DNA from: Candidatus Hydrogenedentes bacterium CG07_land_8_20_14_0_80_42_17
GTDB lineage: Bacteria; UBA8481
DNA: 8,845 nt
Reading direction: 5' to 3'
Assembly (NCBI GenBank): GCA_002780065.1
Contig: PEWQ01000109.1
Span: forward strand, 1-8,845
Below are positions 1-8,792 of this stretch, piece by piece. The translations under genes and the position numbers were made by a program. How positions within the stretch are numbered: position 1 is the stretch's first letter; each line of letters opens with the position of its first letter. The notes beneath the pieces were generated by a model. That model made no database searches, was not told the DNA's origin, and was given only the letters and a program-made list of their open reading frames with translations.

Positions 1-22
1 CGCAGGCTTATTCTGCACGTGC
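1..22 (-). repeat. Edge copy of a dispersed intergenic repeat motif
   Basis: Read on the minus strand, this stretch begins GCACGTGCAG and ends TGCG. It matches 19 of 22 bases of the plus-strand stretch at 4408-4429; the differences are A for G at the eleventh base and CC for AA near the end. It contains the self-complementary octamer GCACGTGC. It lies just downstream of the DUF2079 stop codon and runs off the window edge, so the full repeat cluster cannot be seen. Calling it a copy of the family found near 4408 is based on direct comparison; its function is unknown. Confidence 0.6.
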
Positions 23-29
23 CTCTTGC

Positions 30-1649: not shown

Positions 1650-1712
1650 TCAAAGAAGTCTATTCATTGAGCAAAGTTTATTCAAGAGTGATCAAATGCA
1701 AGAGTTTTCCTC

Positions 1713-1774
1713 GCACGGAGGCACAGGCGCCTCGCGTCAATGGGCGCCTCGCGTCAATGGACGCCTCGCCTGTA
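1713..1774 (-). repeat. Hairpin repeat cluster between ftsK and the DUF2079 gene
   Basis: Read on the minus strand, the cluster has three modules. At 1753-1769 is the 17-base module GCGAGGCGTCCATTGAC. At 1736-1752 is a copy with one change (CCC for TCC). At 1715-1735 is a 21-base module starting GCGAGGCGCCTGTGCCTCC. The same modules form the larger array at 4436-4576, but there on the plus strand. The ends ACAGGCG and CGCCTGT are inverted repeats, and GCGTC-CATT-GACGC forms an internal hairpin. The cluster begins directly after the ftsK stop codon. A U-rich run does not follow on the transcript, so it is not a classic intrinsic terminator, although it could affect RNA stability. The rest of the 1650-1712 gap holds no feature I can support. 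Confidence 0.8.
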
Positions 1775-1775
1775 A

Positions 1776-4223
1776 TTATATTTCTTCTTGGCTTTCTGAT
1801 TCGCTCTTTTCAAAATAAGTTTCGTCGAAGAGGAGCTTTCTCGGTTTGGAGCCGTCGGGCGGAGTAACCAGTCCCATAGCTTCCATTGTATCGACAAGCC
1901 TTGCGGCTCGTGGGTGCCCGACATTCAATACTCTCTGCAGTCTCGAAACACTTGCCATCCCGTCGCGCAGGCATATTCGCATTGCTTTTTCAAGAAACGG
2001 ATCAGGCTGATTTTCATCAAGCGTGTTTAAGTCGGAGTTATTTGAAACGTTATCTTTTAATATCATTGCTTTTTTCGCAATTCCTTGATCTCGATAATGC
2101 TTCACAACGGAATTAATCTCTTCATTGCTGACGTAACATCCTTGCAGTCTTACAGGCTTCGGAAACTCCGCAGCTCTGAAAAGCATGTCGCCTGCTCCCA
2201 GAAGCCTTTCCGAACCCTTTTGATCGAGAATGGTTTGACTGTCTACTTTCGAACTCACCTTGAATGAAATTCTTGAAGGCAGATTAGCTTTTATGACTCC
2301 TGTTATGACATCTACCGAAGGACGCTGTGTAGCGATAATCAGGTGAATGCCGACCGCGCGCGCCATTTGAGCCACTCTAATTATGGCTTCTTCACATTCT
2401 TTCGGAGCAACCATCATTAGATCGCTGAATTCATCAACGACAATTAGAACATACGGAAGACGGTTGGGACGCTTTGCAACGTTGGAAACCTCTTCATCGA
2501 TATCAGCGAAGTTATCGATATCTTCGGACTCTGATTTTGGCAAATCCGCAGAAAGCTTATTGTAAGATTCAATATCGCGGACACCGGCTTGAGCCAAGAA
2601 CCTGTATCTTCGGTCCATCTCTTCAACTGCCCACATTAATACCTGCGGCGCTTTTCTTGAGTCCGTGCATACCGGCGAGATCAGATGAGGGATATCGTCG
2701 TAACCTTGAAGTTCAACAACCTTGGGATCAACCATAAGCATCTTAACTTCTGTAGGAAGCGAAGAGAAGAGAATCGAATTAACTATTGCATTTATGCAGA
2801 CAGATTTGCCGCTCCCAGTTGAACCTGCAATCAATAGATGCGGCATTCTCCTGAGATCAGTAATAACCGGCGCTCCGGCTATGTCCGAACCCAATGCTAC
2901 AGTTAGAGGAGATTCTTTTCGCATCTTCTTGAACTCATCGGAAGTAATAATTTCTTTCAGTGTGACCTTATGCGCTTTTCGGTTAGGTATCTCTATTCCA
3001 ACCGCAGACTTACCGGGAATCGGCGCCTCGATGCGAATTGACGGAGCGGCCATTGCCAATGCGATATCGTCGGCTAATGCAGTTATCGAAGTGACTTTTA
3101 CTCCCGGATTCGGCACTACTTCAAATCTGGTGACAGTAGGTCCCGGCACTATGTCTCCAATTTTGCAGAGAACATTGAAGTCGGAAAGAGTTGTTTGAAG
3201 ATCCTGAGCTTTTTTCAAGAGGTCTTCTTGAGTGACAGCTTCAGTCAGCGGCTTTGGATCTTCGAGCAGATTAATATCAGGAAGCGTAAATTCATCTAAC
3301 GGCTTATAGATTGTGCTGTCGACAATTTCCGCCGAATTGTTTTTTTCATCTTCAAATGCTGTTTGATTCACATCAGGTTCTATCTTTTCTTCGGGCTCAG
3401 TTCCGCCGGACAAAAGTTTAAGAGCCGGAGTTTTTACAACTCGAGTTTGGACCTTATCGAAGTATTCTCTGATTGTGGAATCTGCCTCATCATTTTCAGT
3501 TTTTTGAGCAGGTTCTTTTTTCACTTTTCGTTCAGCTTTTGCCTCTTTCCACTTATCCGGATTTTCTCGTTTCTCATAAATTCGCTCTGCAATCTTTTCT
3601 TCGAGCGATAATGCGCCTTTCCAAACGAGCACAATTCCTTTGATGCATGCAGAAAAGACTCCGCTGAATGAAAGCGGAGTGCCGATAACCAGCGATATCA
3701 TTCCGGCAAAGATGACCATAAGAAATGAGACTAGTCCGAAATTCTGATAGAGATCGGCTGAAAGGCGGTCGCCGAGCGCTCCACCAAGATACCCGCCGCG
3801 ATTTATCAGACCGAGAAATGCAGATACTGAAATGAGTCCTACAGCCAATGCGAGTGCTTTAGCGAAGAGAGCTCTCGGCTGACGCCCCTTGAAAATTGAG
3901 AAACCCCACGCTCCAAAAGCGAGCGGCATTACAAGACCGCCGAGCCCAAAAAGTATTCCGATCTCTTTTGCGATCCATCTCCCGAATTTACCCGCAGGCG
4001 ACGGCAAAGCCGATGACTCAATGCCCATCAATTCGTTAGGGTTCAATATGAGAGACGCAAAGAGAACGATCGAAAGCGCGAGCATTACGAAGCCAAGAGC
4101 TTCACGGCGTTCAACTGTCGTGAAGAACCTGTTCTCTTCGGATTCCTCTTTGACTTTTCGTCTCTTCTCTATATTTACGACTCTGTCCTCTTCAACGCGG
4201 ACAGTATTTTCTCTACGTGCCAT
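1776..4223 (-). CDS. ftsK: DNA translocase FtsK/SpoIIIE
   Basis: An 815-residue, ATP-driven double-stranded DNA pump of the division septum, which clears chromosome ends during cell division. The N-terminus has a charged cytoplasmic stretch (1-41) and four membrane segments at about 42-60, 91-113, 125-145 and 165-190. An acidic linker (about 200-370) follows, then the RecA-like motor. The Walker A motif GSTGSGKS is at 467-474 with lysine 473, and the Walker B aspartate is in VVDEFSDL at 597-599. Other family blocks are MVDPKVVELQGYDDIPHL and IATQRPSVDVITGVIKANLP. The C-terminal winged-helix gamma domain (about 741-798, with MASVSRLQRVLNVGHPRAAR) binds orienting sequences. Length and order are normal for the family. 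The ATG at 4223 (MARREN) was chosen because the frame stays open to 4538 only through intergenic repeats; an in-frame ATG at 4277 is a weaker alternative. No strong Shine-Dalgarno is visible. Identification is near certain; the start is likely. Confidence 0.96.
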   Translation of the reverse strand: MARRENTVRVEEDRVVNIEKRRKVKEESEENRFFTTVERREALGFVMLALSIVLFASLILNPNELMGIESSALPSPAGKFGRWIAKEIGILFGLGGLVMPLAFGAWGFSIFKGRQPRALFAKALALAVGLISVSAFLGLINRGGYLGGALGDRLSADLYQNFGLVSFLMVIFAGMISLVIGTPLSFSGVFSACIKGIVLVWKGALSLEEKIAERIYEKRENPDKWKEAKAERKVKKEPAQKTENDEADSTIREYFDKVQTRVVKTPALKLLSGGTEPEEKIEPDVNQTAFEDEKNNSAEIVDSTIYKPLDEFTLPDINLLEDPKPLTEAVTQEDLLKKAQDLQTTLSDFNVLCKIGDIVPGPTVTRFEVVPNPGVKVTSITALADDIALAMAAPSIRIEAPIPGKSAVGIEIPNRKAHKVTLKEIITSDEFKKMRKESPLTVALGSDIAGAPVITDLRRMPHLLIAGSTGSGKSVCINAIVNSILFSSLPTEVKMLMVDPKVVELQGYDDIPHLISPVCTDSRKAPQVLMWAVEEMDRRYRFLAQAGVRDIESYNKLSADLPKSESEDIDNFADIDEEVSNVAKRPNRLPYVLIVVDEFSDLMMVAPKECEEAIIRVAQMARAVGIHLIIATQRPSVDVITGVIKANLPSRISFKVSSKVDSQTILDQKGSERLLGAGDMLFRAAEFPKPVRLQGCYVSNEEINSVVKHYRDQGIAKKAMILKDNVSNNSDLNTLDENQPDPFLEKAMRICLRDGMASVSRLQRVLNVGHPRAARLVDTMEAMGLVTPPDGSKPRKLLFDETYFEKSESESQEEI

Positions 4224-4284
4224 TGTATTGTTTATCGAAAGAAGAGAACTGAATCTAAAGAAAAAAATGAATCTCATCTGATTT

Positions 4285-4320
4285 GTCACTGCGAGCACCG
4301 AAGGTGCAAAGCAATCTCTT
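4285..4320 (+). repeat. Short hairpin element of the GCGAGC...GCAATCTC type
   Basis: The stretch GTCACTGCGAGCACCG continuing to GCAATCTCTT holds a perfect hairpin, GCACC (4295-4299), loop GAA, GGTGC (4303-4307), flanked by TGC (4290-4292) and GCA (4311-4313). From memory, many unrelated bacterial genomes carry short intergenic palindromes with this CATTGCGAGC...GCAATCTC outline; that recognition is not verified by a search. It sits in the 5' region of ftsK, directly next to the 22-bp tandem array. Function unknown. Confidence 0.5.
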
Positions 4321-4404
4321 GAATGGAGGCATGTGCGCGGCAGAATGGAGGCATGTGCGCGGCAGAATGGAGGCATGTGCGCGGCAGAATGGAGGCATGT
4401 GCGC
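4321..4404 (+). repeat. 22-bp tandem repeat array, 3.8 copies
   Basis: Three exact copies of a 22-base unit occupy 4321-4342, 4343-4364 and 4365-4386. A fourth copy matches the first 18 bases (4387-4404) before the sequence changes to CCCGCA. Each unit starts GAATGGAGGCATGTGCGCGG and ends CA. There is no spacer and no variation among the full copies, which fits recent slippage or unequal crossover. The unit shares TGGAGGCA with the reverse complement of the 21-base module in the array at 4436-4576, so the two may be related. It is not a CRISPR array because there are no spacers. Confidence 0.9.
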
Positions 4405-4407
4405 CCC

Positions 4408-4429
4408 GCACGTGCAGGATAAGAATGCG
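4408..4429 (+). repeat. Dispersed 22-bp motif linking two repeat arrays
   Basis: This segment, GCACGTGCAGGATAAG followed by AATGCG, matches 19 of 22 bases of the minus strand at 1-22. It joins the 22-bp tandem array to the 17/21-bp modular array and contains the palindromic octamer GCACGTGC. Its presence next to repeat modules at this site, and at the other window edge, suggests that it is a regular part of a larger composite repeat. Function unknown. Confidence 0.6.
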
Positions 4430-4435
4430 TTGCAA

Positions 4436-4576
4436 GCACAGGCGAGGCGTCCATTGACGCGAGACGCCTGTGCCTCCACGCGAGGCGTCCATTGACGCGT
4501 GACGCCTGTGCCTCCACGCGAGACGCCTGTGCCTCCACGCGAGGCGTCCATTGACGCGTGACGCCTGTGCCTCCAC
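4436..4576 (+). repeat. Modular 17/21-bp hairpin repeat array
   Basis: After a GCACAG lead-in, two modules alternate. X is 17 bases, GCGAGGCGTCCATTGAC, at 4442-4458, 4480-4496 and 4539-4555. Y is 21 bases, starting GCGAGACGCCTGTGCC or GCGTGACGCCTGTGCC and ending TCCAC, at 4459-4479, 4497-4517, 4518-4538 and 4556-4576. The order is X Y X Y Y X Y. The first unit can fold into one long hairpin: GCACAGGCG (4436-4444) pairs with CGCCTGTGC (4465-4473), and inside it GCGTC (4447-4451) pairs with GACGC (4456-4460) across a CATT loop. Both X and Y variants recur on the opposite strand at 1713-1774. The array is much richer in GC than the flanking AT-rich leader. Confidence 0.9.
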
Positions 4577-4627: not shown

Positions 4628-4819
4628 ATGAAAGATAATGCTGCAAAATTGCTGATTATCATATTGGGAATTTCCATTCTTATTGGACTCCTTGTTCTTG
4701 GCGGCTATTTCATTTTTACAGGTGAGGCATACTCAGTTAAAAATATTTTTATTTCCAACAAAGAAAGCGGTTTTTATCCTTACGTACCGCCATTAAAAAG
4801 TCCTGACGAGGTATTGTGA
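4628..4819 (+). CDS. Small single-pass membrane protein upstream of ComEC
   Basis: A 63-residue protein not recognised as any named family. A short N-terminal stretch (MKDNAAK) precedes one strong membrane helix at about residues 8-30 (LLIIILGISILIGLLVLGG). A polar tail of about 33 residues then includes AYSVKNIFISN and ends PPLKSPDEVL. The layout fits an N-in/C-out anchor with a short extracytoplasmic tail, although topology is inferred. A TTG at 4610 would add six residues; the ATG at 4628 is preferred. No Shine-Dalgarno is visible in the AT-rich leader. Its TGA stop overlaps the comEC start (TGATG), so translation is probably coupled and a role with ComEC is plausible. The coupling and the preserved frame argue that it is real; a chance ORF remains possible. 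Confidence 0.6.
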   Translation: MKDNAAKLLIIILGISILIGLLVLGGYFIFTGEAYSVKNIFISNKESGFYPYVPPLKSPDEVL

Positions 4820-7800
4820 TGCAGAAACGCGTAATGCTTTTTACGTATACCTTTGTTTTAGGTGTTGCAATAGGACTTCATTTCAAACCTCCTTACGAGT
4901 GGGTTTGGCCGCTTTATATTTTCGGGGCTGTTTTTGCTGCGATAGCATGGTCGCTCGCTGTCATTCAGGACCAGGGAAATCGAAGCATTCGAAATTGGAT
5001 GGTGCTCATCAGCTTTTTACTTTCAGCGATTCCGCTTGGAGCAGGTAGATACGCGGATCGTTCTCACATTGCTAAATTCGACCCTGACATTTCGACAGGG
5101 AATCATATAAAGGCTCTTTTTGATGCGTATCCGGATACTGATTTCAATACGACTACTCGAATTGTCGGAAAGATAGTCAGCGAACCGGAATATAGACCTA
5201 AGGCCGGCACACCGGGAATTGTCGCCTTGACGATTCAGCCTTTTGAGGTCGAACCGATTCCGGGAAGCGGAAATATTTATCCAATATCTGAAGGACTCGT
5301 GCAGGTTTATTTGAGACCGACTCGTCCGTTTGCAAGTTATGAGATGGAATGGCAGAAAGCATTCGAGAAGCTGGCGGACAATGACGCTTACGGCTGGCTT
5401 ATCGAGGTCGAGGCTCCATTTACAGTTTTTCGTGGAGCAGACAATCCCGGGCTTTTTGATCCGGAAGTATTTTCGAACGATAAAGACGTTTACGCTCAAG
5501 CAGCGGTTTATTTCTGGAATAAAAACAAACCTTCGATAAAGATCATAAGTGAAGAAGAGAAAGGGAATTTTCTTGTTGAGTTTTCTCTCGCTTTAAAAAA
5601 GAAGATGCTTGGAATAATAAAACTCACGGTTCCATTTCCAGAATCGGCATTTCTTGCCGGAGTGACACTAGGCTCGCGCAGAGGGCTTGACGGAGTGAAA
5701 TGCAAGTTCGAAGAGGGACCACCTCAATCCGAATTTAAAGATGCAAATGCAGATGATGTGCCGGACTTACGGCAAGAGATTCTAAATGAATTTCGATGGT
5801 CGGGCACCAGTCATGTTCTTGCCGTGTCCGGACTTCACGTGACAATCATTGCCGGAGCTTTGTGGGGACTCTTCGTTCTCATGAGAATACCTCCAAAGAT
5901 TTATACTCCTTTGGTTTGTCTTGGTCTTGCAATCTTCTGTTTGATTACAGGAGCGGCTCCGAGCACGATGCGCGCCGCACTAATGAATTCCATTGTGATC
6001 ATCACTTACGTTTATTTCGGAGCCGCATTCAGAGCGTCTTTGCTATTAGCGATCGGAGTTGCGGGATTTATTATTCTTATGATGAATCCAAAGTGGCTTA
6101 TTGAGCCTTCATTTGCTCTTTCTTTTATGGCTGTTTTATCTTTGGGACTTTTGACCAAGCCAATCGAGCAGATTATGAGGCATATTCCCGGAATGAAAAA
6201 ACTGCCGAGTTGGCTGCAGCAGTTCACTTACGCTCAGGGCTCAATTCAGCTTGGAATGATGGGACCTCTTTCCGCTTATTATTTCTGCAGAATGTCATTG
6301 GCAGGCCCGATCGCAAATTTCTTCGCGATTCCGCTCATCGGCATAATTGTTCAATTGGGATTGTTCGCCGCACTTTTAGGATTGATTCCGTTTGCTGGAA
6401 TTTATTTAGCATTAGTCTTGAATGCCGCAAATTATATCATAATTTGGTTCTTTTTATGGGTAGCGCATTTCTCCACGGTTATTCTGCCATTTCCATTTGT
6501 TCAGACTTTGACTCCGAAAATGATAGCAACATATTATTTTCTGCTCGGACTCTTTGTCTGGAATAAACCCATTCTCCGCCGTGGCCGAATACTTTATTAC
6601 GATCTCATGATGGGTATTGGCGGAGCAAAGAGAAGAACCCAAGCGCTTTTAACTTTTGGAGCCGCATTTCTTTTGATTGGTTCAGTTGTAATTTATGGAT
6701 TCTGGCCGCGAGAGCCGGCGGGAGAGTTGCGCTTCAATGTTATTTCTGTGAGATACGGTCAAGCAATTCATATCGAGACTCCAAACGGCGCAAACATTTT
6801 GGTTGATGCGGGCCCTAACGATTACAAGAGCGGATGGAATACAGGAATTCGGACAGTCGCTCAGTATTTCTTGAAACAGCGTATTGGAGCTCTTGATGCG
6901 GTTATCATGACGAATACTTCGCCGGAGGACATGGGCGGAATTGCCGGAGTTCTTTCGATTTTTCCGACGCGCAGATTTTATTCTGCAATTCCGGTTTGGG
7001 ATTGGAACACTAAAGACGAGGCGCAATTCACTAAGCAGTTTGAAGAGGGAGTAGGGGCGGATGCGGCCGAGAGTAAACGGAATCCTGATTACGGCGCGGC
7101 TCTATTTTTGTTTCACGAGCTGGCGGAGCAACTCCAGAAACCATGGAGTATCGGAAGATTTGTTTCTTCCTTTTTAATTTCGCCCATGAGTGCGTTTTCT
7201 GTTACTGGCCCGCCTGACCCTGTCAAAGTTTCTTCCGGAATGGTTTTATGGAGAGAGGACGGCCCCGGAGGAAAATTCGAAATTGTGGCATTGCATCCTA
7301 ATGCTGATTATCCTTTGAAGCCTACGAACAACAACTCAATTGTTCTTCGAGTGACGTACGGTAAGAAGAGCTTTTTGATTGCTTCAGACATAACTGAAGA
7401 TGGAATACGAGAACTTCTAAGATTGCCGCCTGAATTATTGAGAGCAAATGTAGTTGTAGTTCCTGCTCACGGCTCTTCAAAATCGGACATTGAATTATTT
7501 TACAAATATGTATTGCCTGATGATGGTGAAGCTCGTTATGCGGTAATGTCATTTGGAAGAAATTCGGATTTGAAGCCGCCTCGTAGTGCTCATGGTTCAC
7601 GAGGTTCGCGTGAATCCTACCGCGACTCATTTCTCTCGCACAGACAGCTTTTTATGAAAGACATTCAAGGCGGAGCAGACGAGACTGAACGAAAACTCAG
7701 AGAGCGTGGAATTATTGTATCGAGAACTGATCGTGACGGAGCTTTCCTTAGCGCGTCGAACGGGATTGATTTAAGAATATCGACGATGCTTGGCGGAAAA

Positions 7801-7857
7801 CTAGTAGGCGATTTCGATTTAGCGGCGGAGGATGCAAACAAAGAGAGCGGATTGTAA
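4819..7857 (+). CDS. comEC: ComEC/Rec2 family DNA-uptake channel with degenerate C-terminal domain
   Basis: A 1012-residue inner-membrane protein of the family that passes single-stranded DNA into the cytoplasm during transformation. The N-terminus has two or three membrane segments and a DUF4131-like soluble region (about 100-240) with the usual NPGLFDPE motif. The Competence core (about 270-590, many membrane segments) has the signature SHVLAVSGLH at 331-340. The C-terminal metallo-beta-lactamase-like domain (about 636-1000) keeps the fold outline (NGANILVDAG, ALDAVIMTN, RTDRDGAF at 969-976) but lacks most metal ligands. TH is TN at 698-699, DH is DM at 704-705, GQGD is RYGQ at 645-648, GD is SD at 856-857, and HHGS is AHGS at 883-886. 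The ATG at 4819 overlaps the preceding stop, with GAGG at 4807-4810 as a possible ribosome site; the in-frame GTG at 4816 is less likely. Identity is strong; nuclease activity of the last domain is doubtful. Confidence 0.93.
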   Translation: MQKRVMLFTYTFVLGVAIGLHFKPPYEWVWPLYIFGAVFAAIAWSLAVIQDQGNRSIRNWMVLISFLLSAIPLGAGRYADRSHIAKFDPDISTGNHIKALFDAYPDTDFNTTTRIVGKIVSEPEYRPKAGTPGIVALTIQPFEVEPIPGSGNIYPISEGLVQVYLRPTRPFASYEMEWQKAFEKLADNDAYGWLIEVEAPFTVFRGADNPGLFDPEVFSNDKDVYAQAAVYFWNKNKPSIKIISEEEKGNFLVEFSLALKKKMLGIIKLTVPFPESAFLAGVTLGSRRGLDGVKCKFEEGPPQSEFKDANADDVPDLRQEILNEFRWSGTSHVLAVSGLHVTIIAGALWGLFVLMRIPPKIYTPLVCLGLAIFCLITGAAPSTMRAALMNSIVIITYVYFGAAFRASLLLAIGVAGFIILMMNPKWLIEPSFALSFMAVLSLGLLTKPIEQIMRHIPGMKKLPSWLQQFTYAQGSIQLGMMGPLSAYYFCRMSLAGPIANFFAIPLIGIIVQLGLFAALLGLIPFAGIYLALVLNAANYIIIWFFLWVAHFSTVILPFPFVQTLTPKMIATYYFLLGLFVWNKPILRRGRILYYDLMMGIGGAKRRTQALLTFGAAFLLIGSVVIYGFWPREPAGELRFNVISVRYGQAIHIETPNGANILVDAGPNDYKSGWNTGIRTVAQYFLKQRIGALDAVIMTNTSPEDMGGIAGVLSIFPTRRFYSAIPVWDWNTKDEAQFTKQFEEGVGADAAESKRNPDYGAALFLFHELAEQLQKPWSIGRFVSSFLISPMSAFSVTGPPDPVKVSSGMVLWREDGPGGKFEIVALHPNADYPLKPTNNNSIVLRVTYGKKSFLIASDITEDGIRELLRLPPELLRANVVVVPAHGSSKSDIELFYKYVLPDDGEARYAVMSFGRNSDLKPPRSAHGSRGSRESYRDSFLSHRQLFMKDIQGGADETERKLRERGIIVSRTDRDGAFLSASNGIDLRISTMLGGKLVGDFDLAAEDANKESGL

Positions 7858-7934: not shown

Positions 7935-8792
7935 ATGAATTTTGGAAAGATTCAAAAATCTATTTTGGTTCTCGAGGTTGTTGCTATTATTGCCGGCGGC
8001 GGAGTGCTTGCGTTTGTTCCGAAGAAAGCTCCGAGACCTCCGAAAATTGCACAAACCTCTGTTGCGTTCGACACGTCGAGTCTTACAAGAAATCCGATTG
8101 AGATGCTTTCGGAAGAAGAACGCGCGAAGATGGAAGACAAATTGAAGGTGGATATTAATTCCGCGTCCGCTGATGAACTGATGAATATACCCAGAGTCGG
8201 AGTATCAACAGCCGACGCGATTGTAAAATACCGCGAAGAGCACGGCCCGTTTAAAACTTTTGAAGAGCTCGATGCGATTCCAAGAATAGGTGCAAGCTTG
8301 ATAGCTGTATTGCCTAAATACGCTCGATTATCCGGAGCAGATTCTGCGACGCCACAAACATCGTCTTCAAGTGAGCAGGGTTTGGATTTGAACACGGCAA
8401 CAGTTTCTGAGTTAATGACGATACCAGGTGTTGGCCAGTCCACAGCCGAGAAAATTATTTCTGCTCGTCCGTTCAGTAAAGTTGAAGATCTTTTGAATGT
8501 TCCGGGAATTGGCGAGGCAAAATTCGAAAGATGGAAGTCGTATCTCAGGGTTTCAGGAAATATTTCATCGGCAGTTCGTTCAGCTTCTTCTGCATCATCA
8601 ACTCTGGTAAACATCAATACTGCATCTGCGGAAGAACTCCAGAAGATTCCAGGAGTAGGTCCTTCAACTGCGACGGCGATTGTTGATTATCGAGAAAAAA
8701 ACGGAAGATTTTCTAAAATCGAAGACCTCGATAATGTGCCGCGCATAGGACCGGCGTTTATTGAAAAGGTCCGCTCTCAGGTGTCTCTATGA
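7935..8792 (+). CDS. comEA: ComEA-like DNA-binding protein with three HhH modules
   Basis: A 285-residue protein with an N-terminal membrane anchor or uncleaved signal (about 9-28), followed by a Pro/Lys-rich linker (29-71) that ends in a charged helix. Three ComEA-type helix-hairpin-helix modules follow. Module 1 (72-132) has VDINSASADELMNIPRVG and DAIPRIG; module 2 (150-206) has LDLNTATVSELMTIPGVG and NVPGIG; module 3 (225-283) has VNINTASAEELQKIPGVG and NVPRIG. Serine-rich linkers (about 133-149 and 207-224) separate them. ComEA binds incoming duplex DNA outside the inner membrane and feeds it to the ComEC channel; its position after comEC fits that role. Most ComEA proteins carry one such module. 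Module 2 is about four residues shorter at the second hairpin (ISARPFSKVEDL against VKYREEHGPFKTFEEL). The stop overlaps the next start (ATGA), suggesting an operon. Another extracytoplasmic DNA-binding HhH protein is possible. Confidence 0.85.
   Translation: MNFGKIQKSILVLEVVAIIAGGGVLAFVPKKAPRPPKIAQTSVAFDTSSLTRNPIEMLSEEERAKMEDKLKVDINSASADELMNIPRVGVSTADAIVKYREEHGPFKTFEELDAIPRIGASLIAVLPKYARLSGADSATPQTSSSSEQGLDLNTATVSELMTIPGVGQSTAEKIISARPFSKVEDLLNVPGIGEAKFERWKSYLRVSGNISSAVRSASSASSTLVNINTASAEELQKIPGVGPSTATAIVDYREKNGRFSKIEDLDNVPRIGPAFIEKVRSQVSL

Follow-up and report, generated by a model that had tools for sequence, protein, structure and literature searches.

A dispersed family of tagged hairpin repeats resembling REPINs has copies on both sides of ftsK in an uncultured bacterium

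REPINs are extragenic doublets of inverted REP sequences that show compensatory changes, and for P. fluorescens population short reads have been searched for the junctions of excised doublets (Bertels and Rainey 2011, PMC3116915). CGTC REPs lack a dedicated transposase, and TIR-flanked Y1 genes (TIRYT), some of which carry a GGGGWSAS motif, have also been described (Di Nocera et al. 2013, PMC3733652). That work raised, for the CGTC REPs, the question of how REP-like repeats can spread when no transposase is linked to them. Here we describe a family of hairpin repeats from one uncultured bacterium, with copies at about a hundred intergenic spots, including both sides of the gene ftsK.

The analyzed DNA (the window) spans the 8845 bp of contig C154 in a draft host assembly of 2.39 Mb in 207 contigs that is 87% complete. 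Its features are as follows, where n is the number of tandem 17-nt units in a hairpin loop.

1-29, minus strand: incomplete composite element in which the foot-like AGAGGCACGTGC, with a type II arm, adjoins linker AGAATAAGCCTGCG
1649-30, minus strand: DUF2079 membrane protein gene
1709-1775, minus strand: solo type I hairpin with n = 2, ACAGGCGAGG - [CGTCCATTGACGCGAGG][CGCCCATTGACGCGAGG] - CGCCTGTGCCTCC
1776-4223, minus strand: ftsK (FtsK/SpoIIIE translocase, 815 aa), between both clusters and outside the element
about 4287-4320, plus strand: one copy of a second, unrelated dispersed repeat, GCGAGCACCGAAGGTGC...AAGCAATCTC, next to the cluster upstream of ftsK
4321-4407, plus strand: left half of a doublet, foot TGGAGGCATGTGCGC with four copies of the tandem 22-nt unit GAATGGAGGCATGTGCGCGGCA
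4408-4415, plus strand: type II hairpin, right arm (GCACGTGC)
4417-4438, plus strand: conserved doublet linker GGATAAGAATGCGTTGCAAGCA (consensus GGATAAGCATGCGTMGCWWGCA)
4436-4478, plus strand: type I hairpin with n = 1, GCACAGGCG AGG CGTCCATTGACGCG AGA CGCCTGTGC CTCCA
4479-4576, plus strand: type I hairpin amplified in place as a 59-nt direct repeat, which is built from blocks of 21 and 38 nt
4628-4819, plus strand: small ORF
4816-7857, plus strand: ComEC-like protein gene
7935-8792, plus strand: helix-hairpin-helix protein gene

The initial annotation of this DNA had noticed related modules in opposite orientations at the two ends of ftsK, and our comparison bears this out: positions 1709-1752 match 4442-4485 in inverted orientation over 44 nt (91% identity), 1743-1773 match 4438-4468 over 31 nt (97%), and there are five further inverted pairs. 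Exact inverted matches between the intergenic regions that flank ftsK are up to 26 nt long, which is beyond chance, as 1000 shuffles yielded 13 nt or less. As had been claimed, one copy follows the ftsK stop codon immediately on the minus strand and a cluster precedes the ftsK start on the plus strand, both in intergenic DNA. On its other side the former has the DUF2079 gene and the latter the small plus-strand ORF at 4628, and every copy in the window is outside predicted genes. The contrast in base composition that had been pointed out is also real, with 71% GC at 1709-1773 and 66% at 4325-4576, against 12-31% in the flanks. The ftsK product has the Pfam domains PF01580 (E = 5.8e-64), PF17854, PF09397 and PF13491, corresponding to a 4TM, alpha, ATPase, gamma architecture. 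By searching the window for tRNA genes we found none.

The cluster upstream of ftsK (4321-4576) is a single doublet, amplified locally in both of its halves. Its four tandem 22-nt foot units span 4321-4404, and this amplification is seen nowhere else in the 923-kb sample described below; the last 3 bases of the linker at 4417-4438 overlap the left arm of the type I hairpin. A related motif that had been noticed at the window edge (1-22) proved to be part of a composite element: the reverse complement of 1-29 contains GAGGCACGTGCAGAATAAGCCTGCG, which consists of foot, arm II and linker. This element sits just past the DUF2079 stop codon and ends at the contig end, and its short foot-to-linker join matches a copy at L042. 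The neighboring GCGAGCACCGAAGGTGC...AAGCAATCTC repeat has 12 core matches in the 923-kb sample, with other copies at, for example, L037, L058 and L059.

The family is dispersed. Its core sequence GGCGTCCATTGACGCG occurs 187 times in the 2.39-Mb host draft genome at up to 1 mismatch (108 copies are exact), so the modules are not confined to the vicinity of ftsK, whereas the reversed control of GGCGTCCATTGACGCG has no match in the host genome. The host is an isolated lineage–among 97 comparison genomes, one shares its order and the others only its domain–and none of these 97 genomes contains an exact GGCGTCCATTGACGCG. A search for the hairpin in 385 other genomes returned one single copy, which is untagged, and among viral contigs there were 13 with one unit match each and 0 matches to the tagged hairpin. 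When the full composite was used as a query, the matches outside the host were to an AT-rich module only. This module, TATATTTGAAATTGCAAATTGGAAAGTGCAAATTGAAAATTTTATTTTTCC...CACACGTTCTTTG, is present in 67 copies in the sampled contigs (for example at L040:2928 and in L038). It often comes after the hairpin's CTCCA end, adjoins other repeat families too, and has partial matches in eight distant genomes.

To place the copies relative to genes we used a sample of 80 stretches totaling 923 kb, picked mostly for carrying GGCGTCCATTGACGCG matches and containing 167 of the 187 copies, with genes predicted by a crude hexamer gene caller. Copies are found at about 96 sites, 94 of them outside predicted genes in DNA that is 90% coding, although the figure of 94 is approximate, since a bias of the hexamer caller against GC-rich repeats is possible; 54 of the 96 sites are terminal in their stretch, with no further predicted gene beyond them. 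The gene context was codirectional in 21 cases, divergent in 10 and convergent in 9, which resembles the background (179, 82 and 41 overall), and orientation resembles the background too. The family or the AT-rich module is within 200 bp of 58 of the 120 sampled contig ends, compared to 2% of random internal windows, a figure that is biased upward because the contigs were selected for carrying matches. The host genome also contains GTAG-tagged palindromes (GTAGCCGCAGGCTTTAGCCTGCG; 29 matches when as many as 2 mismatches are allowed, such as C3:13723-13745 and C37:2379-2401), which fit the published GTAG REP tag.

Individual hairpins have the structure GCACAGGCG-AGG-[CGTCCATTGACGCGWGG]n-CGCCTGTGC-CTCCA. 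The stem is 9 bp long, and the loop consists of 0-9 tandem 17-nt units, every one of which is itself a mini-hairpin. In solo copies the tag TGGAG (CTCCA on the strand shown) is present at one end only. There are three types of arm pair: CACAGGCG/CGCCTGTG, CACGTGCG/CGCACGTG and CACGCACG/CGTGCGTG. Copies that have feet at both ends and mismatched arms resemble the left half of a type II or III element joined to a type I right half.

The two arms of a hairpin covary. Across 45 elements that lack a second foot, 87% of stem cells are paired, compared to a mean of 73% when right arms are shuffled, and none of 10000 shuffles equaled the observed value. In 16 distinct copies with n = 1, 97.8% of stem cells are paired, both sides differ in 3 pairs, and compensatory changes are present in 13 cells, a cell count and covariation score attained by 0 of 500 shuffles. 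With about three arm types in all, these counts represent few independent events. Correction of one arm by template switching would yield an identical pattern of covariation.

Hairpins of type II or III, in inverted orientation, are often joined to type I by the linker GGATAAGCATGCGTMGCWWGCA, which has 25 matches in the 923-kb sample, several of them in complete doublets; solo hairpins are also numerous. In this respect the doublets are REPIN/BIME-like: a spacer separates a pair of REP-like hairpins in inverted orientation, and the whole can fold as one hairpin. A consensus doublet, composed from copies, is predicted to fold in this way at -50 kcal/mol (z = -10.7), and the real doublet copy at L038 folds likewise (z = -5.3). 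The clusters in the window beat their shuffles only moderately, with z = -3.75 for 4438-4576, -1.1 for 4300-4437 and -1.4 for 1709-1775. Within arrays, units are 91.0% identical, compared to 85.0% between arrays (0 of 2000 shuffles equaled this), and this likeness of units within an array therefore fits local expansion. Some arrays contain gaps of N, and it is possible that array lengths in the draft assembly are partly the product of mis-assembly.

We propose that the clusters probably belong to a dispersed palindromic element of the REPIN/BIME-like kind, which is non-autonomous, spreads in trans and has arrays that slip. What we observed is that the family is dispersed and intergenic, carries its tag at one end, has covarying arms, forms doublets and has units that are locally homogeneous; it is from the dispersal that we infer movement of the hairpin element. 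The basic element is the tagged hairpin with its 9-bp stem and loop of 0-9 units of CGTCCATTGACGCGAGG, and two hairpins that differ in arm type, placed in inverted orientation about GGATAAGCATGCGTMGCWWGCA, make a doublet able to form one long hairpin in single-stranded DNA. Copies may spread as single-stranded hairpin intermediates, on which a putative endonuclease or transposase (Y1-like or other) would act in trans, and the 17-nt, 22-nt and 38/21-nt tandem blocks would grow or shrink at each site through replication slippage. The ftsK region would then have received copies on either side. Counting against the proposal are the moderate folding of the window's clusters, the small number of arm types behind the covariation, and the Y1 genes described below, none of which the repeat bounds. 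A narrower version, which we regard as doubtful, is that this is a REPIN-like class confined to one isolated lineage, with an expandable loop minisatellite of mini-hairpins, that is moved by a non-RAYT enzyme; if so, spread of the doublet and amplification of units at a locus would be two separate mechanisms.

The initial annotation had suggested looking for a REP-type Y1 transposase, and our search did not support one as a partner. Using the PF01797 profile we found four Y1 genes in the 87% complete assembly, on contigs C131, C12, C2 and C205, none of which is bounded by the repeat; all four match the NCBIfam model for REP-associated tyrosine transposases, below its cut-off. The genes at C131:21991-22329 and C12:9065-9403 have long inverted ends (GGGGTCAGGCTTGAACTTTTTTACTTTTT and GGTGCCTGTCTTATAGTTATATAGTTAT, respectively) that are unrelated to the hairpin repeat, and at the C205 gene we recognized no ends. 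The gene at C2:6311-6766 has an upstream end, GGGGACACATAACTTATT, of the GGGGACAC kind that its relatives bear on both sides; the homologs found in other genomes are bounded by inverted ends of their own, several beginning GGGGACA, and the downstream end of the C2 gene is unseen because the contig end cuts the gene. We considered C2 as the repeat's own transposase since it has an n = 0 copy upstream, but that copy lies outside the end GGGGACACATAACTTATT, and because GGGGACACATAACTTATT stands between the repeat and the start of C2, the repeat is a neighbor of the gene and not its end. A dedicated transposase may possibly lie in the approximately 13% of the genome that is absent from the assembly.

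The family could instead be a dispersed minisatellite that needs no transposase, in which hairpin-prone arrays were seeded by recombination, template switching or stalled-fork repair and then altered by slippage. The strong local homogenization of units, the 22-nt amplification at the ftsK site only, and the lack of a repeat-flanked transposase among the Y1 genes found would all fit this; however, tag, arms and linker boundaries are kept over about 100 sites and the linker recurs 25 times, neither of which is expected from simple array seeding, and we regard this explanation as unlikely. In E. coli, BIMEs have been proposed to serve as terminators, mRNA stabilizers, or nucleoid or gyrase sites, and a functional RNA or protein-binding element of such a kind would account for the intergenic position, the stable hairpins, the compensatory stem changes and the copy directly past the ftsK stop codon. 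Against this, copies are unbiased in orientation (12 vs 9), their gene context is like the background, and a search of the window for Rfam families gave no match, so that we consider a functional element improbable; a role as transcription terminator in particular was rejected on orientation and gene context. Between the two possibilities raised in the initial annotation, a passive mobile element or a functional site, our results thus favor likeness to the former and disfavor the latter. That some tandem copies were mis-assembled is suggested by the 207-contig draft, by the N gaps in some arrays, and by the family or AT-rich module at 58 of 120 sampled ends of hit-bearing contigs, but as an explanation of the family an artefact is extremely unlikely: the approximately 96 sites are in different places and unit sequences vary between them.

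Inverted copies could also let the cell flip ftsK, as the initial annotation had suggested. The 44-nt inverted arms, 91% identical, on both sides of the gene speak for an invertible segment, but the longest exact inverted match of only 26 nt speaks against it, as does the absence of any invertase seen in the window. Judging from this one assembly, inverted neighbors are moreover ordinary: the 21 pairs of neighboring clusters on the same stretch comprise 12 inverted and 9 direct pairs, around unrelated genes. We therefore give inversion of ftsK hardly any credence. By eye, the genes between other close pairs look like housekeeping genes–for example, an aldolase, ATP synthase subunits, and the DNA polymerase III alpha subunit–and for this reason we also rejected a composite transposon around ftsK. 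At L063:8102-9749, inverted repeat copies flank three genes that by eye resemble ATP synthase subunits. Nothing singles ftsK out, and it appears to be a bystander that is merely flanked by copies; for the ftsK locus alone, the repeat finding is ordinary.

The family is of wider interest as a good natural test set: it has about 100 copies, its tag is clear, its stems are of three covarying types, and it holds a record of local slippage. Such a set could tell whether it is stem pairing or stem sequence that guides the putative mobilizing activity. Compared to known systems, the family is like REPINs (PMC3116915) in its extragenic inverted doublets, tagged palindromes, spacer, single long hairpin and compensatory changes, and unlike them in its TGGAG tag, its halves of different arm type (a heterodimer), its variable 17-nt loop minisatellite and in that no linked RAYT is seen. 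It shares with GTAG and CGTC REPs (PMC3733652) a short stem-loop, an unpaired one-ended tag, many intergenic copies and frequent inverted dimers, and with the CGTC REPs also that no dedicated transposase is seen. By the published tags it belongs to neither superfamily: the stem-loop and the many intergenic copies fit GTAG REPs but the tag is TGGAG, not GTAG, and CGTC REPs have an unpaired CGTC tag and an 8-9 bp stem, whereas here CGTC pairs with GACG in an inner 5-bp stem. Y1 genes of the TIRYT kind share the host genome, and their inverted ends, GGGGWSAS-type or other, are unrelated to the hairpin repeat. The variable loop minisatellite resembles the STAR elements of Staphylococcus (PMC3532100), which are likewise GC-rich intergenic direct repeats that expand and contract at many sites, with a mechanism of spread that is not known. 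In STAR, however, the repeats are 14 bp long and are set among recurring sequence of at least 40 bp, and the descriptions consulted give no covarying terminal stem, in both respects unlike the family that flanks ftsK.
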